64,000 nt of DNA from Coriaria nepalensis. Lineage: Eukaryota; Streptophyta; Magnoliopsida; Cucurbitales; Coriariaceae. The DNA lies in assembly GCA_027186245.1 (NCBI GenBank), contig CP114490.1:2991001-3055000 (forward strand), read 5' to 3'. Shown here piece after piece: positions 14,138-64,000 of this stretch. Made by a program: the position numbers and the translations under genes. The notes beneath the pieces are model-generated. The model was not told the DNA's origin. It did not search any database and saw only the letters and a list, made by a program, of their open reading frames with translations. Each line of letters opens with the position of its first letter. Position 1 is the first letter of the stretch.

Positions 14138-14365
14138 ATGGCCTCCCTTTCTTGTTCGGCTTCCGACTTGGTCCCCCTCCTTGCCGCCAACTCAAATGCT
14201 TCCTCCACCGCCATAGCTGAATTCTTCTGTTCCCGGTTCGACACCATTTCCAACAAACTCACCGACACGGCTTATGCCGTGGACAACACATACCTTCTAT
14301 TCTCGGCTTACCTAGTCTTCGCCATGCAGCTCGGGTTTGCCATGTTATGTGCCGGATCGGTCCGG

Positions 14366-14400
<35 letters not shown>

Positions 14401-19768: not shown

Positions 19769-20555
19769 GTTTCCTCTGGCTTGTGATGTTAATTATAATA
19801 TTGTATACGTGTAGTGACCTCTTCATCATCTACAACTTCTACGTTAGAAACTTGTGTCCTTTGATGAGGTGATGTGTTTAATTCTGATTACATACTAATC
19901 GCTGGTTACGACTAATCGGACGTGCAACAAGTTGTATGGGTTTGCTTGTTCTACGTGCGGTGATGGCTAATCGACTCTTCAAAAGGTTTAGAGTTGTATA
20001 CTGTTAATGTAACTGTCGACAAATAAACATATATATAGATTATAGACTATTTAATTTCAAGTTTAAACTAAATTTACCTTAATTTTATGTCACCTACAAA
20101 TCTCATTAATATAATATACTATTATAATCACAGTCATATTTCAATAATATTATTATAATTATCACATGTCGTTTAGAAAAAAAACCCGGTTCATATATAA
20201 ATATAAAATTCTATTTTTCTTTATAAGATTTTTTTTTTAAAATTAATAATTCAACTTTAAAATTTTAATATAATATCAAAATTAAATATAAAAAAAAAAC
20301 AAATATCATTTATTAGACTCTCAAAATAGTCCGTTTATAAATAATAAAAAATGTTATAATTATTTTATATCATTTAAGGAAAATAAATCATATAAATACG
20401 AAAGATAAGACAAGAAGACACCTACGCCACAGTAAAGGGTGCTAATGTGCTTACTGCCAGTGATAATTTCTCTAATATTATAAAACGTATGCAGTGCTCA
20501 AGTGATAATACGTGAAGAATACCCCTGTTATAAGAGGAACGATCCTAAATTCCAC

Positions 20556-21103
20556 GTGAAAAGGGATGGTCATTTTTGAAACCTTACTTACAAGAACGTG
20601 AGAAGAAGGTTCTGATGATAGTGATACCATTACAAGTGATGGAAAACCTAGCTTACGTTGTTATATCAGAAACGGGCCCCGCAACAAAACAATGGATGAC
20701 GTGGAATCAAATATTCTTAGTGATGGATGTGATCTGTTGCTGTGCTGTGTTTTTTCCTATTATCTGGTCAATTAGGAGCTTGAAAAGTGGATCTAACACT
20801 GATGGGAAAGCGGCAAGAAATCTGGAAAAGCTTACCCTTTTCAAGCAATTTTACGTTGTTGTGATCGGCTACTTGTATTTCACAAGGGTTATGGTTCCAG
20901 CGGTGGTAGCTATTGTGAGTTATAGATATGAATGGACTGCTTATCTTGTGGCTGAGGGTGCAAGTTTGGCCTTTTACTTGTTTGTTTTCTGCAAATTCCA
21001 ACCCATTGATAGAAACCCTTACTTGGAACTTGATCGTGAAGACAAAGAAGAAGGTGATGCATCAGGTGGTCAGAGATTTGAGGAGGACCCATTTGAGCTC
21101 TAG
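20556..21103 (+). pseudogene. 3' fragment of a GPR107-like seven-transmembrane receptor gene
   Basis: The frame encodes the C-terminal half of a lung-seven-transmembrane (GOST) protein of the GPR107/GPR108 type, called CAND6/CAND7 in Arabidopsis. Recognisable parts are GWSFLKPYLQEREKK (homology starts at about 20556, before the first ATG at 20576), VIPLQVMENLAYVVISE, TWNQIFLVMDVICCCAVFFPI, KAARNLEKLTLFKQFYVVVIGYLYFTR and an acidic tail ending FEEDPFEL. The N-terminal luminal domain and first membrane helices are missing, and the 700 bp upstream is AT-rich and non-coding. The remaining 175-codon frame is uninterrupted, so it is either a recent 5'-truncated copy or a short expressed derivative. 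Full-length family members act in Golgi/endosomal traffic. Confidence 0.75.
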
Positions 21104-26697: not shown

Positions 26698-29600
26698 ATG
26701 GAAGAACACCATGAAGCTGACGATGTAGGGAGTATCTCCAGTGATTCTTTCATAGATGACTCAGATGATAGGCCATCAACCGAACTGGAGGATGAATTGC
26801 CTCTTGAGGCAAGTCAATAAATTTCATTTTCAATTTGTTGTAAAAAGCTTCTTCTTTTACTATAAGCTGTGGATAGTGTCTCTTCTTTTCAGAAAATTCT
26901 CTCTGTTTGATTTTCATGTTCTTTCTCGAAAGTGTCTGACACGGTTTTTTTAATATTGTACAGGAACCTCTGACTGAAAAAGATATTGATGAATTAGTTT
27001 CCGAGTTCTTAGAAGTTGAGAGCAAGGTAATATTATACTGATTCCCTTAGGCTAAATAGGCGATCATGAATTCAATTCTATGTTTGTGTCTATGATTTTC
27101 TATGAAGAACATTCATGAAGATTCACTAGTATTAGGCTGCAGAGGCTCAGGAAGCACTTGAAAAGGAATCTCTTGCTAAAGTGGAGAATGAAGTTAGAGA
27201 TGAGTTGGCACAAACTCTTACTGGAGATGAGGTTAGTTTTTACTCACTCCTTCTCTTTGGATTTTTGTTACCTGGCAAGCCCTTATCTGTTTCGCTTGTG
27301 CATAGTTGGAAACAGCTGTTGCAGATGAGATGGATACTCTTACAGAAGAGTGGGAAGCTGTGCTTGATGAGCTTGAGACTGAAAGTGCTGATTTGTTGGT
27401 ATGCTTTTCTTTTCAATCAGAGTAACGACTTTGTTCTAAACAGATATTTGAATACTCATGTTGATGTGAGTGGCTACTTTTGCCACATTAACTAAACCAC
27501 ATACCGTACATTGACTACTGTATCAGATACATTTCTCTCATTTTTTTGAGTTCTTCTTCTTTCAACAGGAACAACTGGATGGGGCTGGTATTGATTTACC
27601 CAGCCTTTACAAGTTGATTGAAAGTCAGGCTCCCAATGGTTGCTCTACTGAAGCTTGGAGAAAAAGGATACACTGGGTGGGATCTCAGGTGACTGGTGAT
27701 CTTACTGAATCAATAGCTGATGCCGAGAAAACTCTTCTAACCCAAAGGCCCGTAAGGAGGTATGATCAGCTCTTTTGGCACTGTTAGTTTCCTTTTAGCT
27801 GTTGTTTATCTCATATGCTTCTACTTTGTGGGCGTAGGCGACACGGTAAACTGCTGGAAGAAGGAGCCAGTGGATATCTACAGAAAAAAATTTCTGGGGA
27901 TGGGAGTAATGAAGCAACTGTGGCAGAAACTTTCGAGGTAGATTGGTGCTCTTTGAACAAGGTATTCTCTGAAGGTGCTTCGGAAGAAGGCACTTCATTT
28001 GGAAGCAAGCACTGGGCTTCAATTTACTTGGCCAGTACTCCACAGCAAGCTGCATTGATGGGACTCAAATTTCCTGGTGTCGATGAGGTTTCCATTTATT
28101 ACTATCGTTATCATTTTTATCATTTTTATTGTTGTTATTACTGTTGTTGTCTATGTTTTAAAAAGGACATTTTTTTTTTCAATCAGGTGGAGGAGATTGC
28201 TGATGTTGATCCATTTGTTGCAGCAACATTAGCCAACGAAAGTGAATTAGATCTGACTGAAGAACAGAAGAAAAAATTTAGAAAGGTATGCCAATACTCT
28301 CCTGAAGCCATTGTTTCTTTCTGTCTTAAAAATGCATGTATGAGCTGACTCAAGATATGAATATCACTCATCTTGCATGTAATGGTCTCTGTCAAAGGTG
28401 ATTTCATTTTGAGAAATATAATCACGGTTACATTGGAGAGTCTAACAAATTAGGATTTTGAGGCATATTTATTCATGACGTGTTTCTTTCTTTCTTCCCT
28501 TTTTATTTTATTTTATTTTTTATTATTATTATATTTTTTATGGAAGTTAGAATCCACTTTCCAAATTTTCTTTTGCTACCTGGTTGAGCTTTGTTAGTTT
28601 AAGAATTTTTTTTTAATTCATTTCAACAGGTTAAAGAAGAAGATGACGCCAACATTGACAGGAAACTCCAAATTCATTTGAAACAGCAGAGACATCGGAA
28701 GAGGTGTAAAGAGGTATAGTTAGTGTGCATCGTTTTGTTCTCTTTATATTTTATCAGCCTGGACTACAAAATATTGAAATGCTCTTAAGTTATTATTCAC
28801 AAATATCGACCTGCAGAATATCTTATTTATATCAAACAAAGGTTATTATAACAGACTAACTTTGACTATACTAGGGGTCCTATTCAGCTGCGGGATTAGC
28901 ATAACACTCTATATGTGATTTTCTATGAGATAAATAACTATAAGCTCTTTTTTAGTTGGTTTGCATACATGCTAATTACATCAAATTGCTACCGTGATTT
29001 TTTGAAGTAGCTGTTGTTTGTAGGGGAATTGTGAAGCCGCTAAGATGATGTTAGACCCGTCATTATTATTAGTATTAGTATTATTATTAGTATTATTATT
29101 ATGGGGCTATTTTAGTAATTGGTTGTTAGTAGTATAAATAGCAGTAGTATGGTTAGGGTTTAGGGGGGGATTAGATTTTGGAGAGTAAGAACTCTTACGG
29201 AGAGACGGTCTACCTCTCGAATTGTAGACCATCCTATGTTATTTTGATTATTTTGGTGATTGCAGAACAAAGTTTAGCCCTATTCGTAATTATCTAGACC
29301 GGGTCCTATTAGATGATTAACATAAAATACTGCAAGTTGTTGGTTGCATTACATCTTATGACTGGGCAGTGTAGGAGTTTGGACCATGTTTCTAGCTGAT
29401 TCTATGTGGCAATTGATTTGCTAGATGTGGCTTTTCCCACTTTTTGTGGAATTATTCATATGCCATGTTGCTAAAGATGGTCTATTTGTTCCTATTTTGA
29501 CATCTCTTGTTATTCATTTGGTGATATAGGAGGTCCTTCAAAATGAAGTTTCTGCAGCTGATAGGGTAACACAAAGCAATGCAGATCAACTTGCTTCTAT

Positions 29601-32600
29601 GGTTGACAGTTTGAACCATGTTCTAGGGGTTGGAAAAGCTCTTTCTAATGATAAAAATGAGGTTACTTTACAGAATCAATTGACCAGTGTGCATGAAGTT
29701 TCTGATGATTCTAGCCTGCTCATCAATGGAAAGTTATCAAATAATGATGCTTATACATTGTCTTCTTTCCCTGGTTTAATTTCAAGCCAAGGATCCAAGC
29801 GTCCAATTGGAGACGAGGAATTAAACAGTGAAAATAAGAAGAGTCGAACTGTTATCACTGGTATTGAAGACCAATCCCCTTCAACAAAGGAAAAGCCAGT
29901 TTGTGATGTAACTAAGATGGACAACCTGAAGGAAGAAATTGACAGCTTTGGAGATGATGCTCTTCTGTCAGAGGGTGGGATTGAGGAGTTCCGTTGCACT
30001 GCTTGTGGAAATGTAGCTATAAAAGTGCATACACATCCACTTCTTAATGTAATTATTTGTGGGGACTGTGATTGCTTATTGGAAGAAAAGAAGCGCAAAA
30101 AGGTACTTGGAAAATCATATTTTTGTTGCATTAAAAGTGCATACACATCCACTTCTTAAAGTAATCATTTGTGGGGACTGTGATTGCTTATTGGAAGAAA
30201 AGAAGCGCAAAAACGTACTTGGAAAATCATATTTTGGTTGCATTACATAGATACATTCATGAATTGTACATATTATTTTGAAGATTTTTTCCTTAGTTGA
30301 CATAATATTGCCCCCCCCCCCAAAAAAAAGCCACGCACACAGAGAAAATAAAATATAAAGAATCTATAGCAATAGTTTAAGTTGTAAACTATATTGGTAT
30401 TGCCTTTGGTTTTGGTGTTTTTTTTTGGTTGAATGGGATGTGGACATATAATTTCTTCCAAGTTCCTAACTATCAAAATCTCATGTAGAAATAGAGAAGT
30501 AAAGAGAGAAACATGAGACCAGTATTCTGTTGCTTTGTCAAATGACCCATGAAGGAGGAAAAAGTGGAGAAAGAAGTTAATTAGTGTACTTTAGTGACTC
30601 TTATTAGATTAACATTATTCTAAAATTAAGGCGACAGCCTGATTTTCTAACATAGTCTTTGTGACTTAGAACCTAACCCCCTACCTGAAAGAAATTCAAG
30701 ACTGTTTCAAAATGCTCCAGGAAATTTGTTCTATAGATTTTGTGACCCAGGAGGATTAGCACTTGCGTTTGTCTAATAAAATTACTCAAGTAAGTAACAA
30801 GGAAGTTGGTCTGTCAAGCCCTTTTCTTTCTCTTTATTTATTTATTTTATTTTGCTGTATCTATGTGATATAACGCTCAATACCCCATCCCTGAGGATCA
30901 TGGCCAATTTAAGCATACAAATGTTGTGATCTGTGAGAGCTTATGCTTATGTATACTTGCATGTTTGGCGGTTGCTTTAACTTTCAATATTCTGTGCTTT
31001 TGTTGGAATTATATACTCGACTCTGCTGCTTGGCAGTTAAGCTGAATGTTTGAGTAAGAAGTTCCATTTGGATGAGTTTTTCTAATTCATTTTGGTTTAT
31101 GTGCTTGTCGGAATTGCTGCAGGATCTTGATTGCACCCAATGTTATTGTGAATGGTGTGGACAAAACAATGAATTAATTAGTTGTAAATCATGCAAAACA
31201 TTGTTTTGTACCTCTTGCATAAAGAGAAACATTGGTGGAGAATCCCTGTTGGAAGTTCAATCCTCTGGTTGGAATTGCTGTTGCTGTCGCCCGAGCCTCT
31301 TGCAAAAGTTAACTCTGCAGTTGGAAAAAGCTGTTGGATCTAGAAATTTGACAGATTCCTCAAGTTCTAGCTCTGATGGTGATTCAGATAATTCAGCTGC
31401 TGGCATAAATGTTGCTATACCGTATGTTTACGTTGCCTTCTTAACTGAGATCTTGAGAATGTTGTTAATATAAATTTTGTTCTGGCTTCTTGCTTTTAGT
31501 TGTACATATGTTCCATTTTAGTTCCTAAGAGGATATGGGGGCACTCATAATGTTGAATTGTATATGATTGTGTATATTGTAAGCGTTAGCTTTTTCATAA
31601 AATAAATAGAATAGGCTCACTCTGTTATTCTCTGAGGGAACACTAAAGTTTAGATATTCTACAAATTTTCTATCTATAAGGAGGAAAAGAAAAAAAAAAG
31701 AAAGAGGGAAAAGAACTTGGCTTCTTGATTTTTATTCTAATATTGCATTACTAATTTTCACTAGGTCAAAGAGAAAGCGTAAAAAAAAGATTCGGAGGAT
31801 ACTTGATGATGCTGAGTTAGGAGAAGAGACCAAGAGAAAAATAGCAATAGAAAAGGTATGTTCTTTGAATATATATATATTTATCAATTTTTTACTTTTT
31901 TCTGTTTGGGGAGTTAAATTTATTTAACCATTTTTTCAAATTTTTTAGGAACGTCAAGAACGTCTAAAGTCCTTGAAAGACCAGTTTTCTGTCAAACCAA
32001 ATGTTATAAGCTCTCTGACTTGTAATGGGAGCTTACCTGAAGGTACAACAGTTGAAGTACTCGGTGATACGTCAACAGGTTACATAGTTAATGTCGTGAG
32101 GGAGAAGGGAGAAGAGGCTGTTAGAATTCCCCCAAGCATCTCTGGAAAACTGAAAGCCCACCAGGTTACTCTCTTATAGTGGGTTTAGGATTTCAATCTT
32201 TACTTCTAATATTTTGAATGTCAGTGGCATTGCTTATTGTTAATATCTTTTTGGTTCTTTTTCTATTGTTATATATATACACATTTTGTGCGACCTACTA
32301 ATAATCTCATACTCTGCATATTCTGAATACTAGGCCATGCACAACAAAGGTTTTGCATTTATCATTTATTGTGTAGATTACTTGGTATGATAATCCTTCA
32401 TATCCTGAACAACAGGCGTGTCATTTAAATTTTCTTTATTCTCCTTAATGTTAAGCACTTAGTGGGTCTCTTCGTCAAATGTTACCCTGTATTGTGTTGG
32501 ATGGGTTTTGGTTGATTTTTCTATCAGTAATCATTTTCAATGATGATAAATTTGACATTGCGCTGCAGATTTCTGGAATACGATTTATGTGGGAAAATAT

Positions 32601-39138: not shown

Positions 39139-40309
39139 TCAAAGAGTGGATTCATCAAAGGTAGGTTCTGATGTGGTAGGAGCGTTTCCACCACCAATCT
39201 TCTTATTTTGGTTACCCCCACCACAAGTAATCGAAAATTCACAACCGTAAGCTGTTCCGAAACAAGAGAACAATCCTCCTCCTTTTCTTCTATGTGGTTT
39301 CTTATCCTTCATTCTTCTACTAGTGGTGGCACGAAATTTACTAATGTCGTGTTCATATGCTGTCGGATGCTCCGATCTCCAACTCTGAATTTTTTGTCTT
39401 CAACCCTTTCGTGCTCTCTTCCTCGGTCCAATCCTCCAGTATCGAGCTCCCCATCTCCTTAGGAATTGGATACATCCCTTTCGCTATTGCTGCTGCCACC
39501 ACCGATGGAGAGGGCCCCAGATCGGATATCTGCTCTGATCCATTTCTTACTTACTCGTTATTGCAAGCGGACCTGCTCGGTATCTCGGGATAATTATAAT
39601 TGCTAATTTTGTTACAAGTGTCACTGTCGATTCTTTCGCTCTTGTTACGTAGTAATGGGATCTTATTAGCAATGCCCTTTTTCTTATCTTTACGTGTTGA
39701 TGTTTTCTCATCCTTGTTTAAATCCCAGTAATCAACGGCGGAAGTGCTTAGATCGCTATAAAGGGGCAAGCTTTTCATGTTGCTATCTAACAATGTCACC
39801 CCTACGTTCAATACGCCTTGTGGACGACCAGAAGGTCGACGAACTTGAAGGTCAACTAATCTCATTCTCGGAGTATCACTACATCTTGAAGATGGCGGAA
39901 CGAGGCTGCTAAGGAAAACTCCGACAGTTCCTATCAACGTGTCCTGTCGCCAGGCTAAGGCATAGATTTCAATCGTAATGCTTGCAGTTTCTGAGGTGAG
40001 AAATTGTTCATCGATTTGAAAAACAAAATTTTCGTTCCATGTAGGGTTTGTTTGACCGTGTTTACCGATCGTAGACATAAGTTTACGTTGAGGATGAATC
40101 CATGCAACTAGGAACGTTTTCATGGACTTTGCCACAGGTGCTAGGTCTTTTGCCGATATCACATTGATTTCAAGAAGCTTGAAGGAGGCGTCCAATGGCA
40201 TCCTTGCTGATGAAACCCTGATAGAGTGTGGACGCCCTTTATTCTTACCGTGATAGTGACGGTGATGGTGCCGCTGGCTCGTGATTTTGATCACGGTGGC
40301 CAACGCCAC
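39139..40309 (-). pseudogene. C2-domain protein gene, disrupted by a stop and a frameshift
   Basis: A single-exon plant C2-domain (SRC2/BAP-like) gene. The N-terminal 252 codons (40309-39551) are open. A C2 calcium/lipid-binding domain is seen as LEINVISAKDLAPV, WIHPQRKL, NPTWNENFVFQID and IEIYAL, followed by RRPSGRPQGVLNVGV. An in-frame TAA ends this frame at 39551, yet family-type sequence continues beyond it in the same frame (LGPSPSVVAAAIAKGMYP, ILEDWTEEES, to about 39400). After a run of six A at about 39391-39396 (minus sense) homology moves to another frame and ends with GGGLFSCFGTAYGCEF at about 39220, stopping at 39139. Two lesions imply a pseudogene. The intact C2 domain could still be expressed as a truncated protein. 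Confidence 0.78.
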
Positions 40310-40590
40310 TGTGAGCGGATGAGAAAAAGGTGTGATTAAAAAGAGAAAAAAAAAAATTTATTATGTACAAGGTACTAATTTGCTTTTTGGGTGTTTGGAT
40401 ACACAAAAGAGAGATGATTTCGTGGAGAGAAGGAGGCTAGGTTTCTACTGAAGGAGAGGTTTTTGTAAGATTAACATTTATCGGTTAGTTAGTTACTAAT
40501 TTCTTTTTTGGAACCGTGTTTTGTCTTAACGACTATATTTTGAGATTACAAAAAGCATTTTGTTTTTTATTTGCTGTGGAAGAAGTAAAA

Positions 40591-41450: not shown

Positions 41451-42887
41451 TTGAAGAAATATTCATCACTACCTCTTCTATGTTTCATGCTGCTGCTACA
41501 ATCAAGTAAGTCCCTCTCAAACCTAAGTTCCTTAGTCTACAATGTTCATTTGACAAACCAAACATCCATAACATCAATCATCCCCACTAGAAATAACAGT
41601 TCTCATTCCCAAACACTCTCTTCACTCTTCCAATAACTCATTTCCCACTCCTCCCAAAGAAAGTTCTTCAAAACAACTCATCTCATTAATGATGATCACG
41701 GCCATGAAATTGCTGCCGCCCTCTAGCAATGCCGAGGCGACATCGACTTCCAAGACTGTTACAATTGTGTTACCGAACTCCCAAAATGTTCAACACTTTG
41801 TTTGAGAAGCCGCTTCTTGTCGCATTCAACTTCAAGGTTGCTGTATGCACTATGAGCCTGATCATAATAACAGGTTTCTTAAACATGATCTGATCATCAA
41901 TACTAAGCATGAGCTGCTTCACAAGATTTGTGTGGAATCAAACGGAAATTTGGGTGGGTATGAAGAGAAGCTAAGTGAAGCTTTTGAAGCATTGGAAGAG
42001 GGTGTTCTGAGTAGTGCGGACGGATATCATTCGACGAGGTTCGAATCGGTGCAAGTGATGGCTCAGTGTGAAGGGGATTTGGATGGTTGTGAATGTGGAG
42101 AATGTGTCAACAATGCAGCGCAGATTGCTATGGATGAATGTGGTGAGGCAGCTTCTGGTGAAATTTATTCAGACAAGTGTTATTTGAGCTTCACTTGGTC
42201 TTTGGATGGGAAACAAGGAAACCCTTATCCAGGTAAAACCCTAGGAAAAAAAAAATTCTCATAAATCAAATGTATATATATTACCGATGTGAGAAAGTTC
42301 GAGTACCGATCGAGACTAACTCACATAGAACCCAACAGTTGATCCTCTCACTTACACAAGATATAAGAGATAGTTTATCGGTCAAACATTTATTACTTTG
42401 GTGTTATGGATTCTATATTTCATTATTACTATAAACTCTTTGCTCAGCTGAGTCTTGCTTTTTTGTTCATTTGAGAGAAAAATAAGAATATGTTAAGAGT
42501 CTCGATAATAGATAATATAATTGAGTCGGTTTCTTATCAGATTAAAATTTTAAGATAATCATTAACTTAACATAATAATATAGAGGTATTTTTAAGTTCA
42601 AATCACAATCGTTTCTTCTTTTATTTTTTCTACATATAATATGTTTTTTAAATTTTATTTATTATGTATTTATATGTATAAAGTGTATATTATTATCAGA
42701 TCAAAATTTTAAAATAATCGACCATAACAAAAATAGCATATAAAGAGGTGGTAATTGTCTTGGGAGGGGTGGCAGCTCTAGGCCTTGGTTTCATCGTCTC
42801 TGTGTTCATCAAATCTTGTGGGAAGAAAGACGATGTTTTGAGTCTTTCGTTTAATTACGTGATACATAATCCAAATTTGACTTAATA
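41451..42887 (+). pseudogene. DUF26 / plasmodesmata-located-protein-type gene, disrupted
   Basis: Remnant of a cysteine-rich repeat secretory or PDLP-type protein: signal peptide, two Gnk2/DUF26 domains, transmembrane helix. A signal-like start (KKYSSLPLLCFMLLLQS) at 41451 leads into SLVYN...QTLSSLF. In-frame stops occur at about 41635 and 41725. The first DUF26 C-x8-C-x2-C motif (CRGDIDFQDCYNC) is readable after them. A frameshift near 41790-41845 follows, and the second domain is then open (ELLHKIC...CEGDLDGCECGEC...DKCYLSFTW, to 42264). A membrane segment (VVIVLGGVAALGLGFIVSVFI) appears in a later exon at about 42750-42815. Loss of the first domain makes function unlikely. Family members sit at plasmodesmata or the plasma membrane. 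Confidence 0.75.
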
Positions 42888-46380: not shown

Positions 46381-48042
46381 AGAGAAAGAGGGGATGGATA
46401 AAGCTAAGTACTTGAAAGAGACTTTTTCTAAAATTATTGCGTTTTTATTTATTTATTTTTTTCTAGTTGGGTCAAGAAGACAAAGCCATTATATCGTGTT
46501 CGTGAGAATATTTTCCATTTGCTTTTCTGCTGCTCCTTTCGTGCGGGTCGGGTTCGGCAGCTACGGAGCAGCTACTTTATGAGCAAAAGGTTCGAAATTT
46601 TGCAGCTTCCGAGGATTGATTTGCTCTCTTTCTTCAATTCTGAGTAAAATTTGTAAATACCCACCTCAAAATCTCTGATTTTATTTGTTTATTTCTGTTT
46701 TCCTGTTTGTACTTGCTAAGAGAGCAGATTTGCATGGTTGCGTATTGTTTTAAATTTGGAGAAATCTATGCTTTTTTAGAGTTTATGATTTGTTCTAAAA
46801 TGGGGATTTTTTTTTTTTTTTTCTGCTGTGGAATTATATATATTTTTTTTTTGGTTTTTGTGTTCTTGGGATTCTCTTTTTCTATATTGGTAGCTTAATG
46901 GGAATTTGATTCCTGCTTATCTGCGTGTTCTTAAGTACGAATTTTATGATATTCTCATCTTGGAATATAATTTTCATTTGTACTTTTAAAGCATAATGGT
47001 GTTCTGTTAGCTTCTCTCTCTATAGTTTGTGAGCTGGAGGATTTAGAGTAGGATTTAGCTTTGATGTCATAGTATGATATGAATTTTTGGTTTAAATAGT
47101 ACTGATTGTACGGATTTTCTGTTTTGATGATTGGGCGGAGAAGTAAAATCATGGGCTTAGTTGAAGGGTAGACTTCTATTAGAAGGTAGTTGCAAACTTG
47201 AGCTGGTGTGAATAAACTGGAGTTCGATCAAACTATATTTTGGTAAACCGTGATGTGAACAGGAGTTTGCAGTTGGGTCTTTGAAAAATTGGAGTGCATA
47301 TCCAAACATGATTTTGAGTTGGAATGAGTGTGTGGTTATGTGTGATCAAAAAATTTCTTTGTCAAGTTTAAGGTTATATATAATCATACTACTTGAAGTA
47401 AGCAATAAGAAGAAGAGAATATTAAGATGGGTGAATGATAATAGGTGAAAATATCTATCAAGAGATGAAAGCACATAAAAAGCTGGACATGGCATCTTTC
47501 TAGGATAGGATGAGAGAATGTAATCTGATTATTATTTGGGGCATATCCATCATATATATACCTATGAATAAAATCAATGTGAAATGCTAAAGGGATTCAG
47601 GTAGAATGAATAAAAAGAAGGCCCATCATCATGTCAGTTATCCAAACCCAACTATCTTGTGCTTTCGCTGTTTTTTTTTTTCCCTCTTCCTAATGGAATT
47701 AAATTCGCCTAATTAGTTGGTCATTTGTAGTTGATTGAGCATTCTATGTTGTGTTCCAGGAAACCACCAGTCTTATGAGATTGTGGTTGTTAGTGTGCAT
47801 TTGGCAAAGAGTTTGCAAACTAGAATTTAGCTAAACTCTGTTTTTGTTATATTGACGGGCAAATTGGATTTTGGATGAAAAGCATTTGAACAGAGTTTTG
47901 GACAAACTGGAGTTTCAAGGGCTTCACCAATATACAAGCTTAGTCTCTTGATACAACCATTCTTAACATTTGACTGGAATTGTGTTTTTTAGGTACAAAA
48001 TCAGCTGAAAACTTTTTTTTGCGGGGGAGGACTCTCTAATCT
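46381..48042 (+). promoter_or_regulatory. Probable 5' UTR and leader intron of the MYB-CC gene
   Basis: A leader exon around 46400-46640 followed by a long T-rich intron ending at TTTTTTAG near 47991 is the simplest reading. The coding start is at 48043. The exact transcription start is not visible. Confidence 0.4.
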
Positions 48043-50494
48043 ATGTCTTCATCTTACCCTGTTCTTCATATGCCTATGGAAGACAAGTATCCAAAAAGGC
48101 CAGAACCATTTGAAGTTTTTTCAGAAAGGGAACTTATGAAGAAGCCCCTTTCACAGGCTCCCACTATGGTTTCAAACACCCGAACTGTGGGCCATCTTTT
48201 TTCATCACCCTCGGCATTTCCGTATGATATCCATTTCCCTTCACTTTCGCTGCATGAAGGGCAATCTCATCATTCCCCATTTATTTCTCAGTCTGCAAGT
48301 GCCCGTAATTCCCAGCCAGTAGTAGTACAATCTACAGCATTAACTGACCCAGATGAACAGAATATTCCCTGGTCTGGGGAGCCACTTCAGGATCTTCTTG
48401 ACTTTTCGGACAATGTCCCACCTGGACAGAATGGCCAGGGGGAGTTCATTGCGGGCCCCATGACATCAGACGACCAGTCCAAAAGAACAGATTGGCCAAC
48501 TTGGGCTGATCAGTTTATCTCAGTTGATGATAGTCTGGAAGCAAATTGGAGCGAGATTTTTGCTGACTCTACCATTGCTGATTCTAAATTAGAGGTTTGT
48601 TTTCAATTCAATTTGCATTTGATTCAGGGTTTGAAAACTAGGGTGCATTTGGGTAGGTATTTCAAATGGTATTTTGACACTAAAATCCAATTTGAGACCA
48701 AAATCCAGTTTCAAAATACACTAAGTTAAGAAGACCCACAAAATCTTAGATTTTTGTTTAGCCAAATTATTGTCTCAATCACTTCTCCAAATGTGCCCCA
48801 AGTTTTGTGGGCCCAAAATAGATTTTAGATTGATGGCCAGTTTGTCTGGGCATTTATACAATCCCTTTGGATTGATTTCAATAAATTTCCAAATTCATAA
48901 ATAAATATGCCACATCAATATAAATCTAATCTTATAAAGAAAATCCAGTTTTAGAAATTCAGTTCTAAACCAGTTTATGCAAACTGGTGTCTCATATTTT
49001 GGAGTTTTTGAACTCTAGACCAAAATGGACCCTGATTACTGACTTGTGTCATCATGTGCCATATCTTCGTTTCTTGGTCCCTTTTATCATTTGATATCTT
49101 GTAAGCATTGTTTCTCAGGTGCCAAAGCCATTATCTATTCTTCAGGGACCACAGGCCCAAATCGGTCAAAGGGAGATACAACCATCTGGGGAGCTCCAAT
49201 CTCCTAACTCCTCATCCGCCACGCCTGCAACGCGACCCCGAATGCGGTGGACCCCAGAGCTTCACGAGGCCTTTGTGGAAGCTGTCAATCAGCTTGGTGG
49301 CAGTGAAAGTATTTTCACCTTCTTTACTTATTTCTATTTAATCAATGAAAAAAAATCATAAGGCTTTCTCTTGACTTTCGATGTTCTACTTAAAAGGAGC
49401 CACTCCTAAGGGGGTTTTAAAGCTCATGAATGTTGAAGGCCTGACCATATATCATGTAAAAAGCCATCTCCAGGTAACTTGACCAGCTTATCCTTGTTTG
49501 ATTTTCCTTCTCTCTGAGAAGCTTGTTATCAATATCACAATTTTTTTTCTTTTTTTCAATTCAGAAATATCGAACCGCCAGATACAAACCTGAATCATCA
49601 GAAGGTAGACTGTTGAATTTTCATCCATCATGTATCCTATATTGACCTTTATGCTTGGAAAATATCGTGTATCGCGAATTTTATTATTTATTCAGGAAGA
49701 AAAACAAAGCAGTTGGACAATTTGCTAAATTTGTGTGACTTGCCTCTCTCTATTCAGGGACTTCAGAGAAGAAACTGACTCTCGGTGAAGAAATGAAAAC
49801 TCTAGACTTGAAAACGTAAGTGTGTGTATATATATATAAATATATAAGCTACAATTTTTCATGTTATGCTATTTACATTGGATTGGAATTACAGGAGTAT
49901 GGGCATAACCGAAGCATTACGATTGCAAATGGAAGTGCAGAAGCGGCTCCACGAACAGCTCGAGGTATGCACTTGCATTTCATCTTTGCATTTTATTTTT
50001 TATTCTTATACTGGATGTAAATATTATGAACAGAGGTAAGGCTTCAAATTTTTATAAACAAAAGTCAAATATTTTTTGTTTTCTTTGTATCATTTCTATT
50101 GATAGTTTGGCTTTTATTGAATAAAAAACAGATTCAAAGGAACTTGCAGCTAAGAATCGAAGAACAAGGCAGGAATCTTCAAGAGATGTTCGAGAAACAA
50201 AGAAAGATGGAGAACGAGAAGTTTTCAAAGGTCGATGACTTATCGACCTCAGTTCAAGTTAATGATCAATCAGAAGAAACCTCCGAGCCAGGTCAAGACA
50301 TACCAGATATAGGGACAAGTAATGCCAAAGTAGCCACACAGGAACACGGTTCTAGGTCCGAAAATAAGAAGCAAAAGGCCCGAGAAAGCACAAGCAGCGA
50401 GAAAAATGAACAGTGCAATGAAATTGGTGGGGAGTGTAGTGGCCCGGACACAAAACGAGCAAGAACAGCAGATGAAACAGTGACATCATCATAG
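48043..50494 (+). CDS. MYB-CC transcription factor, PHR1-like, seven coding exons
   Basis: Nuclear regulator of the phosphate-starvation response class, which binds P1BS elements as a dimer and is restrained by SPX proteins. CDS exons 48043-48594, 49119-49308, 49397-49473, 49565-49604, 49758-49815, 49895-49964 and 50132-50494 total 1,350 nt (449 aa) in frame. The N-terminal 220 residues are Ser/Pro-rich. The single MYB/GARP repeat reads [21 protein letters not shown], then [21 protein letters not shown] and [10 protein letters not shown]. The coiled coil follows with [16 protein letters not shown], the CC-family signature, and continues through [20 protein letters not shown]. The C-terminus is acidic and Ser-rich. 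Whether it is PHR1 or a PHL paralog needs a tree. Confidence 0.93.
48640..49033. mobile_element. Possible MITE in intron 1 of the MYB-CC gene
   Basis: A 394-bp segment is bounded by imperfect terminal inverted repeats, AGGGTGCATTTGGGT at the left and (reverse complement of the right) AGGGTCCATTTTGGT, 13 of 15 matching. It has no coding capacity. No clear target-site duplication flanks it, so the call is tentative. Confidence 0.4.
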
Positions 50495-54830: not shown

Positions 54831-55978
54831 GTATAGAGAGAGAGAGAGAGGAACTTTTCATTGATCTACCGGTTTTCAGATCTCCCTAATTTACTTGAAT
54901 TCAGGGTGTGATCTTACTTTTGCTTTTTCTCTACCTTGAGAAAACACAAACTGCAATCAACTAAGAAGAAAGGAAGAAGACAAACGGGAAGAGAAGAGCA
55001 TTATTGTCTGGTATGTTCTCCTTTTAGTAATTACTATCTCCTTCCAAGCTATTACTTAATTCACAAGCAACCATGAAAAAAAAAAATTCATGTAGAAATG
55101 GTGAAGGAAATCTGTCTATCAATCTACATGTGTGTATAGGAACTATAAGATACAACTTCTAAATCATTCATGAATTTTTTTTAGGGGTGAACAAAAGTCC
55201 CAATTTCGGGACGATTTCAAACCTGATAATGATAATTGAACTGATTTTAAAAGTACTAGTTAATATTAAAAAGAGAGTAAAAATATATACATTTTTCTTC
55301 TTCTTTTCTCCTCCTTATCTTCTTTTCTTCTCTTTTCTTCTCTTTTCTTCTTATTAGATATAATTCACTTTTTAATCCTTATATAATTTAAATTTTACAA
55401 ATTCATCCATATTTTAACTCCGATGAACCTTTTTAGCCTTTATTTTGTTAAAATCAAACTTTTCGATTATTACAATTATTTTTTTTGATAAAAGAGCTTA
55501 AATGGCATTTTTAAATACGTCAACATATATAATTAGACAACATGTGTAAATTCCAATTTTTAATATTACCAAGCTAACAATAAAATATTAAAAGTATAAA
55601 TTTGATCTAATTTAATCTGTTTTCTTTACAACTTTGTCCAAAAAAAAAATTTTATGTTATATTTTCTTCCCCTTTAATTTTTTTTTTCTTTTTCCGCCCC
55701 ATCTCGTAGCCATGGCAGCAGCTTCCGGGATTGGTACTGGGATAGTCAAAACTGGGTTGGTACTACTCTCCCGGACCGATGGGACTTTTGCCCACCCTAA
55801 ATTTTTATTCAACATCTTACTTATGGATAATGGACATCAATAAGTTAGAGGCTTAACTGATTTCCAATAATAGAATTTTCTATTTATTCGTTGGGAAGGA
55901 AGTGATTCCTAGTTCCCTACTACTAAAATAATCACATCACTACATGTTCGTGACATTGTTATAATGATATATACGCAG
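54831..55978 (+). promoter_or_regulatory. Leader exon and leader intron of the NLR gene
   Basis: A GA microsatellite (54835-54850) lies in the presumed 5' UTR exon, which ends near 55013 at CTG|GTATGT. The leader intron runs to a CAG acceptor at 55976-55978, placed so that the start codon is the first triplet of the next exon. The open frame at 55634-55843 lies inside this intron and is not supported as coding. Confidence 0.5.
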
Positions 55979-58900
55979 ATGGCGGAGATCGCGGCAACTG
56001 TTGTGGGCCCCATAGCCGAAAAAACAACAGGATATGCAATCAACCAGATTGTCCGACAAGTTGGTTACTTAGTTCACTACAAGAGCAACCTTGATGAATT
56101 CAAAAAACAACTCAAGAAGCTAACTGACAGAAAGGACAGCATCCAACATGCAGTTGATGAAGCAAAACGAAATGGGAAAGAAATCGAACCTGCAGTCCTA
56201 AACTGGTTTGGTAATGAAAACTTTTCTAATTGTTTTTCATTCATTGAATAGAGGCATCCTGATTCCTCTTATAGAGGAGAAAACACAAAAAATAGGAAAC
56301 TAAAGAAAATAGGAAACTAACCTAAAATTAGCTATCTAGCTGTACTAGTAACTTCCTAATTTACACCATTGACTGATTTTCATTTACAGCTAACGGTCCT
56401 CTATAATTACATATATTTCTTTCCTTTTCTACACTTCCCCTCAAGCTGGTTGGAAGATATCCTCCATAGCTAGCTTGCCAATTAACTCGTTGAATTGTTC
56501 ACTGGGAAGCCCCTTAGTAAGCACATCTGCAACTTGCTGAGTAGTGGGAATATAGGGCATACAGATCAGTCCTTTTTCTATTTTTTCCTTGATGAAGTGT
56601 TTGTCGACCTCCACATGCTTTGTTCTATCATGGAGTACTGGATTATGAGCAATTGAGATTGCAGCTTTATTGTCACAATACACTTTCATAGGTAGTGGAT
56701 TAGAAACTTTCAACTCTTCCAGTAGTCTCTTAATCCACAAGACCTCACAAATCCCATGAGCAACTGATCGAAACTCAGCTTCTGCGCTACTTCTTGCCAC
56801 TACATTCTGCTTCTTACTTCGCCATGTAACAAGATTGCCACCAACAAACGTGCAATAGCCAAAAGTTGATCGTCTATCAACAACACTTCCAGCCCAATCC
56901 GCATCAGTATAGGCTTCAACTTGCAAGTGCCCACGATTCTTGAATAACAAACCTCTTCCAGGAGTCCCCTTTAAATACCTGAGAATTCTATAGACTGCAT
57001 TGAAGTGTTCTTGTCCGGGCAAATGCATAAATTGACTAACCATGCTAACTGCAAATGCTATGTCTGGACGAGTATGCGACAAGTAAATTAGTTTGCCAAC
57101 AAGTCTCTGGTATTGTTCTCTGTTCAGAATTTCTTCAGGTTTAAGATGCTGTAATTTGATATTGAGCTCAATAGGTGTTTCCGCTGGTTTACACCCTAAC
57201 AAGCCTGTTTCATTAAGTAAATCAAGAACATATTTACGTTGATTCACAAATATACCTGCTTTGGATCTAGCAAACTCCATTCCAAGAAAGTATTTTAGTG
57301 TTCCTAAATCCTTGATCTCGAAGTCGGTTGCAAGTCTCTTCTTCAGTTTTTCTAGTTCTTCACTATCATCACCTGTCATGACTATATCATCCACAGAAAC
57401 AATTAGTATAGCAACTCTACCTCCTCTACCATGTTTATAGAACATAGTATGATCAGCTAGGCTTTGACAATACCCACAATTCTTTACAGATTTCCCAAAT
57501 CGTTCAAACCAAGCTCTAGGAGATTGCTTGAGACCATACAATGATTTCTTTAGTCTACAGACTTTCTTTGATCCCAAATTTTTCTCAAACCCGGGTGGAA
57601 GACTCATAAAAACTTCTTCCTCAAGATCACCATTTAAAAAAGCATTTTTTACATCCAATTGATGTAATGGCCAGTTCAAATTTATAGCAAGAGATAGTAA
57701 AATTCTGATTGAGTTTATCTTGGCTACTGGAGCAAAGGTCTCCTGATAATCAATCCCATAGGTTTGAGTAAACCCCTTAGTTACTAATCTTGCCTTATAC
57801 CGTTCTATGCTACCATCTGCTTTACACTTCACAGTAAAGACCCATTTGCATCCTACAATCTTCTTCTCCTTAGGCAAGTCAACTATCTCCCGAGTACCAC
57901 TTCTCCTAAGAGCATTCATCTCTTCCATCACTGCTAATTTCCAATTTGGATCACTAAGAGCTTCCTGAATGTTTCTCGGGACAAACAAGTATGATATTTT
58001 TGAGGTAAATGCCTTATGAGTGTGAGAAAGTTTGTCATATGAAAGATATTGAGCAATGGGATATCTAGGAATCCTAGTGCAATTTCGGATTCCTTTTCTA
58101 ACAACAATGGGAATATTAAGATTTGATGATTCTTTGCTAGGGAAAGTGATGGGAACTAAAGATGAGTTAGGATCGGAAATACCTGTGATAACTGCAGGGC
58201 CAGTCCCCAAGGATTGTGATTGATCATTACTAAGAGTAACTTGCTGCCTTTGACTCTTTTGATGATGTTTTCTCCGGGTATAAACCAAGAGCTCACTGTT
58301 AGAATCATTTTTATCCGGCTGTAGTAGTGATTCTTCCCCTGTTTTAGATACAATACTGTTTGGCATTATATTACCATCACTTCCTTTATTGTTCTCAGTA
58401 TCATCACATTGCTCCAGACTTTGAAGATCATTAATGGTAGGATGATAGGAATGAGGTATAACAGTCAAGATTACTTTTGGTAAAGGGTTAGGAGATCAAT
58501 CCCAAAAAATTTCTTCCATTACCTCATTCTCCCCCTGAAGAGTATTTTTGTGAAAGTAGGATTTATTTTCAAAAAAAGAGACATCCATATTGACATACAT
58601 TTTTCCTGTTTGGGGATTATAACACTTATATCCCTTTTTATTTGAGGCATACCCTATGAACACACATTTTTCTGCCCTTGGATCAAGTTTAGATTGAGTG
58701 TTATTAGGTATACGAACAAAAACAATACAACCAAAAACCTTTAGAGGTAAATCGGAGTACATTCTAGAAAAGGGAAAACAGTTTTTAAAACATTCTAGAG
58801 GTGTGCTATATTTTAAAACACGTGTAGGCATTCTATTAATTAAGTAAGTTGCTGTTAGAACAGCTTCTCCCCAAAGATATTTTGGAACATTCATCGAAAA

Positions 58901-61900
58901 CATTATAGCACGTGTTACTTCAAGTAAATGTTTATTTTTTCTTTCAGCAATCCCATTTTGCTGAGGAGTATCTACACAAGTAGACCGGTGATGAATACCT
59001 TTTTCTTTCAAAAATTTTTCCAAAATACCTTTATAGTACTCAGTTTCATTATCACTGTGAAGAATTCTAATTTTCTTTTGAAATTGAGTTTCAACCATTG
59101 TGTAAAAATCTTTAAATATTTTTTCAACTTTGGATTTTTCACTCATTAAGTAAACTCAACATAAACGAGTGTGATCATCTATGAATGTGACAAACCATTT
59201 TTTCTTTGAAATAGTGGTTACTCTTGAAGGTCCCCAAACATCACTATAGATTAAATAAAATGGTTTTGAAGGTATATAAGTTTTTGGCAAATAAGTGGTA
59301 CGGTGACTCTTAGATAAGCAACAACTTTCACAATAGAATGATGAAAAATCCAAACCTTTAAATAAAGTAGGAAACAAATGTTTAAGATAAGGAAAGCTAG
59401 GATGTCCCAGTCTTTCATGCCAGAGCATTATTTGTTCATAAGCGGAATTAGAACTAACACTACTAAGGCCCTGAGCTTTTTTATTCCCTAAGAAATCATC
59501 ATCAAAGTAGTAAAGGCCACTAATCAACTTAGCACTGCCAATCTTCTTCCCCGAGGTCTGGTCCTGAAATTCACAATAAGAATCACAAAAAATCACTCGG
59601 CAATTAGAGTCTTTAGTTATTTTACTCACAGATAAAAGATTACAAGCTAACTTGGGAACATGGAGAACAGAGTTAAGGTTTAATTTTTCAGATAATTTAA
59701 TCAAACCTTTCCCTGCTATTGGTGAGAAAGTGCCATCTGCAATTCTTATTTTGTCAAGGCCAGAACATGGTGAGTAAGTGTGAAACAAATTTGAAAAATT
59801 GGTCATATGATCAGAAGCTCCTGAATCTATGATCCAAGGAGCATGATATGAACAGGAAGAGAGAGCATTAGGTGTGATACCTGTTTGTGCAAGAGAAACA
59901 GTAGGAATACTACTTGGTGATACCATGGGTTTTAACAGTTTTAGAAGATGATCCATCTGCTCCTTGGTGAAGGGACTTGTCTCGGCTTCATTTGCCGTAG
60001 GAATGAACCGGGTATTTTTATCACCAGGCTTGCTGTTTTTCCAATTTGACATCTTTCCATGGATTTTCCAGCATGTTTCTCGGGTATGACGTGGTTTGTT
60101 GCAATAGTCACACCATACCCGTGGCTTCTCTTCAGGTTTTTGCTGAAATCTGGATGTTTTGTTAGCAGTAGCCTCGACACTAAGAAGAGCAGAACTTTTA
60201 GCAGGCTCGTTAGTTGCCTTTTTTCCTAGCATGACATGTCTGCGGCTCTCTTCTCTTCGAACCTCAGCAAACACCTCGCCAATTGGAGGAAGTGGCGTCC
60301 TGCCAATGATCCGCCCTCGAACCTCATCAAACTCAACATTGAGTCCCGCAAGAAACTTGTAAATGCGAGAAGCCTCAACAATGCGGTTGTAATATTTTGC
60401 ATCTTCTATGGATTTCCATTCATAATCATTGAACAGATCCAAATCTTGCCAGAGACGTTTTAATGAATTGAAATACTTGGTTACCGAGTCTTGTCCTTGC
60501 CGGATTTCACCAAGTTTTAGAGTCAATTCATAGACTTGAGACTGATTTCCCAAGTCAGAGTACATTTGATTCACGTTGTCCCAGAGTTCCTTGGCTGTGG
60601 AGTAACACATATAATTCGAACTAATGTCCTCATCCATAGAGTTCACTAGCCAAGTCATTACCATCGAATTTTCTGCATCCCAGGTTGCATACATTGGATC
60701 CTCTATTGCTGGTGCCTTCTTGTCTCCAGTCAGGTATCCAATCTTCCCTCTCCCTCTAATATACATCCGAACTGATTGAGACCACCGTAAATAGTTGTCA
60801 CCATTAAGGCGAATAGTGGTAACTTGGATTGGATGAGTATCAGTATTGGGAGTTTGTGTTGGAGGACTGGTTGTAAGAGGCAGGTTTGAGACAATCTTAG
60901 ACATGATCAGTTTGGGCAGAAGAGAAATTTTTTTTTATTTTTTATTTTTTATTTTTTTCCAGTTTGGCTCTGATACCATGAAAACTTTTCTAATTGTTTT
61001 TCATTCATTGAATAGAGGCACCTTGATTCCTCTTATAGAGGAGAAAACACAAAAAATAGGAAACTAAAGAAAATAGGAAACTAACTTAAAATTAGCTATC
61101 TAGCTGTACTAGTAACTTCCTAATTTACACCATTGACTGATTTTCATTTACAGCTAACGGTCCTCTATAATTACATATATTTCTTTCCTTTTCTACAGGT
61201 AAAGTGGACGATTTCACTGAACAAGTCAATGATTTCTTCGCCCAAGATCAAAAGCGAAAAGACACTACTTGCTCATGTCCAAATCTTCGTTCAAGATATA
61301 AACTAAGTAGAAGAGCAAAGAAAATGACTCAAGAGATAGTTGAGCTCAATCAAGAAAGCCGGTTTGAAAAAATTGGTCGAACGATACCTCTACGAGGAGT
61401 GGGGACCACAATGGTAAAAGGGTACCACGAATTTGAATCTAGAATGCCAATTATTAAGGACATTTTGGAAGCTCTAACCGATGCTCATACAACCATGATT
61501 GGGGTTCACGGAATGGGTGGAGTCGGGAAAACCATGCTGGTCAAAGAAGTAGCAAGACAAGCTCGAGAAGGGAAGTACTTTGATGAAGTAGTAATGGCAA
61601 CTATAACTCAAACTCCAAACATGAAAAAAATCCAGTTGGAAATTTCTGAGCCTCTGGGGTTGAAGATTAAGGAGAGAACTAATATAGCAAGAGCGGATCG
61701 GGTTAGAGAAAGATTGAAGGCTGAAAAAACGGTCTTGGTCATCTTAGACGATCTTTGGGCGAATATAGACTTGGAAGAAGTAGGGATTCCAGTTGGAGAA
61801 GATCATAAAGGGTGTAAGATCCTCATGACATCTAGAAAACATGATGTTTTATCCAATGAAATGGATACTCAAAAGAATTTCTTGGTGGAGGAGTTGTCCA

Positions 61901-63780
61901 AAGAAGAGTCATGGAACTTCTTCAACAAGATAATGCCGAACATCGAATCTAATGAGGTGAAAGAAATTGCAAGTAAGGTGTCAGAAGAATGTTCCGGATT
62001 GCCTCTTGCACTAGCAGCTGTTGCGAATACATTGAAAGGAAAAGATTTACCGATTTGGAATGATGCATTACAACAACTCAAAAACAATGAGATGAATGAA
62101 AGTGTTTATTCTTCTCTCAAGTTGAGTTACAAGTCTTTGAAAAGTGAAGAAGCGAGGTCCATTTTCTTGCTTTGTAGCTTGTTTCCGGAAGATTATCAGA
62201 TCAATATCAAGTACTTGTTGGTATATGCTATGGGAATGAGGTTATTACATGGTGTTGATGACTTACCTATGGCAAGAGATCGGATTCTTTCTTTGGTTCG
62301 GAATCTCAAGGATTCTTGCTTGTTGCTAGATGGGATCAACAACGACTTTGTGAAAATGCATGATGTTGTTAGAGACTTGGCCATTTTGATTGCATCGAAG
62401 AATCAGTCGAAGTATTTAGTAAAGCATGGGGTTAATGGACAAAACGGTTGGCCGAAAACGGATACGGTTATAGAATATACTGCAATTTCATTAGGCTGTG
62501 GAGAACATTTCGAGCTTCCAGAAGAATCTACGTGTCCAAAGCTCAAGTTCTTACTGCTAGTTGGAACAAGATCACATTTGAAAATACCCGACAATTTTTT
62601 CGAAGGAATGAAAGAAGTTACAGTCTTAGACTTGACGGGTCTTTCTATTTTACATAATATTCCATCATCTATCCGAGGGCTCCAGAATCTTCACACGTTG
62701 TGTATAGATGATTGCGTTTTACCAGATTTGGCTATAATTGGGGAGCTAAAGAAGCTTGAAATTCTTAGCTTTAGAGCATCCGATATTGAGGAATTGCCTA
62801 GTGTAATAGGGCAATTGACTCATTTGAAAATGTTAAACTTAACTGATTGCTCTAGACTCAGGGTGATCCCTCAGAATTTGATATCCGGGTTGACAGAATT
62901 GAGCGAGTTATATATGGACAACAGTTTTTCAGCATGGAATGAAGGATCAAGCAACGTGGGAATTACAGAATTGGACAATCTATCAAATTTGACCACCTTA
63001 CACGTACATATTCCAAATGCTATGATTCTTCCAAAAGAATCAATCTTCAAAGGGTTAAAAAGTTATAGAATATTGATCGGTCCTAACTGGGATTGGTCTG
63101 GTAAATACGAAACCTTTACGAGGACATTGAAATTGAAGCTTGATAGAAGCCTTCAGAAAGAGTATGGAATTCAAGCATTGCTGAAGACAGTTGAAGATCT
63201 TCATCTAGATGAGCTAAAGGGTGTAAAGAGTCTGGTTTCTAGTCTAGACCCGAATGAAGGTTTTCCAAATCTAAAGCAGCTTTGTGTTCAAAGCAGTGGT
63301 GAGATATTATCTATTATTGACTCCGTGCAATTAGAGCATCACGCACCAATTGTGTTCCCTCTAATGGAGTCCATATCATTGAGAAATCTTATGAATTTGG
63401 AAGTGATATGTAATGGGAGAATTTCAGGTGGGTCCTTCCGGAACTTGAAGAAAGTTAATGTGGAGAGGTGTAATAGATTGAGATTTGTGTTCTCTTCTTG
63501 CATGGCTAGAGGCCTTCCAGAACTTCAAGAATTGCAAATCAGTGAATGTAGTACACTGAAGGAGATAGTAGTTGCAAAGAGAGATGAAGAGGCGCTTACA
63601 GAAGACAGTAGTGATGGCATTTTTGATGTTACGAAGAAGTGGATAGAGTTTCCTCAACTTCGCTCTCTGATACTAAAACAGCTACCAGCACTCCAGGCCT
63701 TTTATGCACCGATTCCGGAAAACCAACATGGGTTTCACCCTCTATTCAACCAAGGGGTATGTATGTTTATACGAGTGTTG

Positions 63781-63816
<36 letters not shown>

Positions 63817-64000
63817 TTTTGTTTGTTTGATATTGATGTCAACTTTGTTTTATTTTTGCAGATTTCCTTTCCTAGCTTGCTGACATTGAAACTTTCGGCT
63901 CTGAACTTAGGAAAGATATGGGAAGAGAGCTATGAATTTCCCACAAGCCTTTCATCCATATCACAAAATCTGACTTCTTTGACAGTAGAAGATTGTGCTA
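55979..64000 (+). CDS. CC-NB-LRR (CNL) disease-resistance gene, interrupted by a copia element; 3' end outside the window
   Basis: Cytosolic immune receptor of the RPS2/At4g27190 type. Blocks: 55979-56210, then 61199-63756, then an exon from 63862 past the window end. With the element spliced out, the first two blocks give 930 codons in one frame. The coiled-coil part is about residues 1-150. NB-ARC landmarks: P-loop GMGGVGKT (about 182), kinase-2 VLVILDDLW (about 258), RNBS-B KILMTSR, GLPL CSGLPLALA (about 344), RNBS-D LLCSLFPEDY and MHD VKMHDVVRDLAI (about 464). LRRs start near residue 520. The last intron (63757-63861) contains an AT microsatellite and its junction reads QG|ISFPSLLTLKL. 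Without splicing of 56211-61198, translation ends at about 56251 after roughly 90 residues. Apart from the insertion no lesion is seen. Confidence 0.88.
56210..56214. repeat. Left target-site duplication of the copia element (GGTAA)
   Basis: GGTAA directly precedes the left LTR (TG at 56215). The GT at 56211-56212 also forms the presumed splice donor TTTG|GTAATG. Confidence 0.93.
56215..56433 (-). repeat. 3' LTR of the copia element (minus-strand sense)
   Basis: 219 bp, differing from the other LTR at three transitions (two near 56256-56259, one near 56327). Adjacent on the inner side is the polypurine tract. Confidence 0.95.
56441..60904 (-). pseudogene. Copia gag-pol polyprotein with two in-frame stops
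   Basis: One reading frame from ATG 60904 to the stop at 56441, broken by stop codons at 59156-59158 (within integrase) and 58496-58498 (between integrase and reverse transcriptase). No frameshift is involved: the open pieces 60904-59156, 59146-58496 and 58468-56441 are in register. Domains in order are a copia gag (N-Y-x-x-W near residue 38), a CCHC zinc knuckle (CDYC...H...C, about residues 264-277), an aspartic protease DSG motif (about 358), the pre-integrase LWHERLGHP, the integrase core, reverse transcriptase and RNase H. The reverse transcriptase motif reads SVDD where the family usually has a Tyr before VDD. The element is not autonomous as read. Movement would need proteins supplied by another copy. 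Confidence 0.93.
60966..60978 (-). other. Primer-binding site of the copia element
   Basis: On the minus strand TGGTATCAGAGCC directly follows the LTR terminus (CA at 60979-60980). It is complementary to the 3' end of initiator tRNA-Met, the usual primer of plant copia elements. Confidence 0.9.
60979..61197 (-). repeat. 5' LTR of the copia element (minus-strand sense)
   Basis: 219 bp. On the plus strand its right end is pyrimidine-rich (TTTCTTTCCTTTTCTACA). Together with the following G it forms a good 3' splice site for the host gene. Confidence 0.95.
61198..61202. repeat. Right target-site duplication (GGTAA)
   Basis: Identical to 56210-56214. Its first G completes CAG, the presumed splice acceptor of the interrupted NLR gene. 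Confidence 0.93.
63782..63811. repeat. AT microsatellite in an NLR intron
   Basis: About fourteen AT units in the short intron 63757-63861, between a GTATGT donor and a TTTTTGCAG acceptor. Confidence 0.85.

Follow-up and report, generated by a model that had tools for sequence, protein, structure and literature searches.

A Ty1/copia-type long terminal repeat (LTR) retrotransposon lies antisense within the putative coiled-coil exon of a nucleotide-binding leucine-rich repeat receptor gene of the coiled-coil class (CC-NLR) in Coriaria nepalensis, and its flanks carry GT-AG borders between which deletion restores the pre-insertion reading frame. The locus is found in a 64,000-nucleotide (nt) stretch of contig CP114490.1 (positions 2,991,001 to 3,055,000), which is referred to here as the window. 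Both the insertion and its intron-ready geometry were confirmed. In the explanation proposed here, the element would have inserted recently at a GGT site, a candidate donor would be built from the left copy of the target duplication plus the first bases of the LTR, and the right LTR would supply a pyrimidine tract, a branch-point-like motif and a terminal CA, to which the right target copy would add the last G. Some transcripts would then be joined from 56210 to 61199 and encode an unchanged receptor, while others would use a donor at 56206, run into the element or end inside it. Judged from the DNA, the prediction that some transcripts are exactly spliced, with the precision, expression and function that this implies, appears to us evenly balanced between true and false, and doubt about it comes mainly from a weak donor and a competitor that creates a stop. 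The origin of introns in land plants is largely unresolved, and at this locus every proposed step can be followed to the single base.

Anatomy of the insertion

The features on which the argument depends are as follows (positions are those of the window).

55979 to 56210, plus strand: coding exon 1 of the receptor gene, 232 nt with an ATG start, N-terminal, putative coiled-coil region; an open frame whose homologues begin at or near the same Met
56206 to 56207, plus strand: competing GT donor
56210 to 56214, plus strand: left copy of the target duplication, GGTAA, containing the candidate donor G/GTAATG at 56211
56215 to 61197, minus strand: Ty1/copia-type LTR retrotransposon, 4,983 nt, with LTRs and with gag, integrase and reverse transcriptase domains on minus-strand pieces
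56215 to 56433, minus strand: left LTR in the window, the 3' LTR of the element, 219 nt
60979 to 61197, minus strand: right LTR in the window, the 5' LTR of the element, 219 nt, whose antisense end gives the acceptor its pyrimidine tract and CA
61154 to 61158, plus strand: CTAAC, a branch-point-like motif with its first base 45 nt upstream of the end of the candidate intron
61198 to 61202, plus strand: right copy of the target duplication, GGTAA, whose first G completes the acceptor CTACAG/GTAAAG
61199 to 63756, plus strand: coding exon 2 (remaining putative coiled coil, NB-ARC and LRR), an open frame with domain matches
63757 to 63861, plus strand: native intron GTATGT...TTTTTGCAG, used as the reference for splice scores
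63862 to 64000, plus strand: exon 3, truncated at the end of the window

The ends of the element adjoin both copies of GGTAA, and the coordinates and lengths given for this insertion in the original prediction proved correct to the base. Excision of 56211 to 61198 (4,988 nt, the element plus one target copy) joins the 232 nt of exon 1 to the 2,558 nt of exon 2 in 930 codons with no stop, as had also been claimed. The two LTRs end in TG...CA and differ at three of their 219 positions, all of them C/T, in agreement with the 1.4% divergence noted earlier; at plant rates this corresponds to about 0.5-1 million years.

The GGT that such an insertion requires begins at 41 of the 2788 positions of the joined coding sequence (1.5%), and the four classes of target that permit an exact intron occupy 90 of 2786 positions (3.2%). 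Before selection acts, some 1.5-3% of exonic insertions would be expected to have intron-ready geometry, and one such insertion across a plant genome is uncommon, not astonishing.

The receptor gene

The window (35% GC) terminates inside the plus-strand gene. Exon 2 matches NB-ARC (PF00931, E 2.9e-45) and then LRR_RPS2 (PF23247, E 7.1e-24); exon 1 alone is without a Pfam match, and homologues nevertheless align over it. Among the matches listed, the closest are disease-resistance (RPS2-like) proteins of Cucurbita and Cucumis (54%) together with three unnamed proteins (54-55%), and by these similarities the gene is classed as a predicted CC-NLR of the RPS2/At4g27190 type. The 976 residues encoded within the window match residues 1-993 of a Cucurbita relative that is 1361 residues long, so the claim of a receptor otherwise free of lesions holds up to base 64000, or for about 73% of the protein, whereas about 27% lies beyond the window. 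No second copy of the receptor gene that could serve as a natural empty site was found in the window by blastn with both exons or by tblastn with the first 189 residues.

Several smaller features of the gene were recorded. An in-frame ATG lies at 55964-55966 (plus strand), 15 nt upstream of the assumed start at 55979, and CAG directly precedes the latter ATG (55976-55981, plus strand), as if an intron of the 5' untranslated region ended there. The native intron contains a TA-repeat run at 63782-63811 (plus strand).

Candidate splice sites

Splice sites were scored with matrices that were not trained on the host, and ranks among AG and GT dinucleotides refer to positions 55979 to 63756 except where the window is named. 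The acceptor at 61198 scored 10.94, first of 544 AGs, against 11.45 for the native acceptor, and in the whole window 7 of 3724 AGs reach its score, itself included. Seventeen of the 20 nt before its AG are pyrimidines, a richness equalled or exceeded at 36 of the 3724 AGs of the window, which bears out the earlier description of a pyrimidine-rich LTR end completed to a CAG acceptor. On its downstream side, the same CAG/GTAAAG doubles as a strong donor (8.85), and a second AG at 61203-61204 (plus strand), if used, would keep the frame and lose two residues.

Several features weigh against exact splicing. The donor at 56211 scored 4.28, ranking 68th of 380 GTs, compared with 8.88 for the native donor, and it places 12th in strength among the 41 GGT sites of the joined coding sequence. 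Five nt upstream, the GT at 56206 outscores it (6.77 vs 4.28 with the same matrix), and splicing from that GT to the acceptor at 61198 gives a stop straight after Trp76. The element itself holds further strong sites (acceptors 58947 and 60962, donors 58005 and 58747) that could create poison exons, and AATAAA motifs are present in the sense strand of the element at 59254 and 59361.

It had been proposed that any copia insertion into a G-GT site gains its splice sites automatically. This is well founded for the very strong acceptor and less so for the donor: because the TG of the LTR follows the left GGTNN copy, a copia insertion at GGTNN always has T and G at donor positions +5 and +6, and with these bases fixed the 'automatic' donor is handicapped. 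As a general rule, what the element contributes to the 3' side of the intron may well decide whether splicing occurs.

Fates of the transcript and use of the gene

Exact joining of 56210 to 61199 has to be weighed against two outcomes in which the receptor would be lost. The first is an ordinary loss-of-function allele, in which transcripts retain the element or terminate within it and only the recency of the event has kept the downstream frame intact. Retention would lead to a stop at 56249 and a 90-residue product; the weak donor and the AATAAA motifs are compatible with this outcome, and exonic ONSEN insertions in Arabidopsis often produced truncated transcripts, with chimeric transcripts commoner from exonic than from intronic insertions in the results that bear on this point (PMC12112155). 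Against it stand the very strong and correctly placed acceptor and the intact 930-codon frame.

The weight of the intact frame was gauged with a neutral-decay test in which the indel rate and the transition weight were assumed. From the three LTR differences, about 19 substitutions and about two lesions are expected in the coding sequence under neutrality, and the probability of no lesion is 0.13, with values of 0.65 and 0.002 at the 95% limits of the LTR count; the low limit of LTR divergence favors the loss-of-function allele and the upper limit speaks against it. The test is too weak to decide, so the suggestion that an intact frame indicates a gene still in use is retained as weak evidence, and for a gene that is cut by the window end. 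Residue conservation gives a similarly mixed answer. The joined protein departs from four of the 77 columns that are at least 95% conserved across 120 homologues (L/V, L/V, L/I and A/V), which counts against continued use; at the same columns the median homologue has one departure, the five nearest have one each, and 19 of the 120 have four or more. Four departures would fit either a functioning, divergent receptor or slightly relaxed constraint. Taken with the splice signals, these observations make a loss-of-function allele a possibility of real weight, though one that we consider improbable on balance.

The second outcome, in which splicing of the element relies chiefly on the GT already present at 56206, leaving a null or nearly null allele whose product ends at Trp76, is unlikely. 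It draws on the matrix difference given above and on U1 duplex energies that are tied (-5.0 kcal/mol at 56206, -5.1 at 56211, with -8.4 at the native donor), whereas in-register pairing with U1 spans five consecutive bases (GGUAA) at 56211 and only three at 56206, and the matrix that prefers 56206 was not trained on the host. Returning to exact splicing at 56211, intron gain without loss of function, as originally put forward, is plausible: the geometry, the acceptor and relatives that lack an intron would be consistent with it, while the stop reached from the competing GT argues the other way.

Ancestral state of the site

Homologous proteins were examined for an interruption at the junction, and 117 of the 120 listed align across it. 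Thirty listed homologues are shorter than 1000 amino acids (aa), and nine of these end no more than 25 residues from the exon-2 end; judged by eye, at least seven of the nine (P0003, P0004, P0005, P0047, P0052, P0053 and P0082) run on with V past that end. Since a V after exon 2 corresponds to the GT donor being read through, these seven were probably derived as open reading frames from genomic DNA, although intron-retaining transcripts are an alternative source. With the proteins of at least seven relatives continuing unbroken over the insertion site and beyond the close of exon 2, an intron was very likely absent from this site ancestrally. Sixteen of the 117 alignments show a gap near the junction, which is a point on the other side. 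The relatives gave no sign of an intron at this position; an unrelated one there would have told against the original prediction.

That the intron is older than an element which later landed in it is highly improbable, and a pre-existing intron was rejected on anatomy and relatives: NLR introns do hold retrotransposons, as in RPP7 and Sr22b in the accounts cited below, but the LTR termini directly adjoin both copies of the target duplication and leave no room for older intron sequence, and the reading frames of at least seven relatives run through the site.

The retrotransposon

The internal region of the element consists of three pieces.

56441 to 58495, minus strand: pol piece with reverse transcriptase (RVT_2, E 8.6e-74)
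58496 to 59155, minus strand: pol piece that includes part of the integrase (SH3_retrovirus, rve), with in-frame TGA codons at its limits (59156-59158 and 58496-58498)
59156 to 60934, minus strand: gag and pre-integrase piece (Retrotran_gag_2/3, Pol_BBD, gag_pre-integrs)

On the minus strand the order runs from gag and pre-integrase through rve and SH3_retrovirus to RVT_2, which is the copia order, with integrase before reverse transcriptase. All pieces share one minus-strand frame, interrupted by the two TGA codons; these cut pol, so the element lacks the intact gag-pol frame of an autonomous copy, and the broken frame concerns its activity, not its family membership. The 120 matches listed for the reverse transcriptase piece include copia-type polyproteins of plants, with identity reaching 82% across 72% of the query.

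No second copy of the element was detected in the 64-kb window by blastn with the LTR and two element pieces, which apart from self-matches gave just five short matches (24-34 nt), all from a single stretch of the element. A scan of the window for the LTR-end pattern, allowing up to three mismatches, found only the element's own ends.

Relation to known systems

The closest precedent is a full-length exonic insertion of ONSEN, also a Ty1/copia element, that was spliced out as a new intron in Arabidopsis thaliana, as seen by nanopore cDNA sequencing (PMC12112155). Its host gene is given as AT5G32415 in section 2.3 of that paper and as AT4G34215 in section 3.4, and its passages on ONSEN leave the mechanism open, stating that 'LTRs may consist of splicing sites' and referring to a 'unique context'. 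In both cases a full-length copia element lies in an exon, removed there as a new intron and a candidate for such removal here, which makes ONSEN a nearer parallel than RPP7. The ONSEN case is a new laboratory insertion, whereas the Coriaria element is natural, older, located in an NLR and known from DNA alone; splice sites derived from the target duplication, which are central here, are not discussed in the ONSEN passages. Another ONSEN copy lies within an intron of ABI5 and is described as spliced with help from IBM2 (PMC4791638), and a copia element in an intron of soybean FT2a is reported to be spliced out along with that intron (PMC4719747).

Models of intron gain offer a second comparison. 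A 2012 review describes transposon insertion at AGGT (PMC3443670), in which, as here, the target duplication provides both splice junctions and the coding sequence is unchanged; that model as outlined there needs AGGT, whereas at this locus the duplicated target reads GGTAA and the LTR end contributes the A of the acceptor AG. Introner families have been described that bring their own 3' splice site and obtain the 5' one through target duplication, and the portion of that large survey considered here reports none in land plants (PMC9860276). As characterized there, Introners are multi-copy and mostly DNA-transposon-like, in contrast to the single locus and autonomous-type LTR element found here. 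It is tempting to regard the antisense end of a copia LTR as a portable 3' splice site, such that insertion at GGTNN would give an exact new intron, here in a working receptor placed under transposon-silencing control from the start; on present sequence evidence this wider proposal is rather doubtful. Should other copies act in the same way, this would be an LTR retrotransposon family of Introner-like character in a land plant.

Among NLR genes, the parallel originally drawn with RPP7 is apt in that each is a CC-NLR gene whose transcribed unit contains a copia element, and fails in position: COPIA-R7 is described as lying in the first intron, upstream of all coding sequence (PMC7529245), whereas the present element interrupts coding sequence. 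Control of RPP7 through COPIA-R7 and EDM2, by proximal polyadenylation and H3K9me2, has been shown in the parts of those studies concerned with it (PMC7529245; PMC8116057). The functional CC-NLR Sr22b of Triticum monococcum is reported to contain a 13.8 kb retrotransposon that is removed from its cDNA (PMC8882774); that element is described as Gypsy-like and in the second intron, not as an exonic insertion. If it is spliced, the Coriaria gene would be a further immune receptor with a heterochromatin-prone intron.

The portions of PMC3281118 and PMC12124190 considered here contain nothing on LTR elements as new introns, and no description of an LTR element forming an intron of an NLR coding exon was found in searches of one open-licence library. 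The principle is already in print (the AGGT model, Introners, ONSEN and NLRs with intronic retrotransposons), and the present locus would be another case of it and is a clean test case.

Surroundings of the locus

A single-exon gene for an ammonium transporter (AMT1;2-like) occupies 14138-15646 on the plus strand, and its best homologues among the 120 matches listed are 86% identical and come from several plant orders. With the 54% identity of the receptor's best named match, in Cucurbita, these similarities point to a dicot host that is probably a rosid. Other open frames of at least 150 aa are found on the plus strand at 20549-21103, 27788-28348, 29530-30159, 41806-42264 and 48040-48729 and on the minus strand at 39551-40357, so the receptor gene marks the border of a region that contains several gene-like frames.

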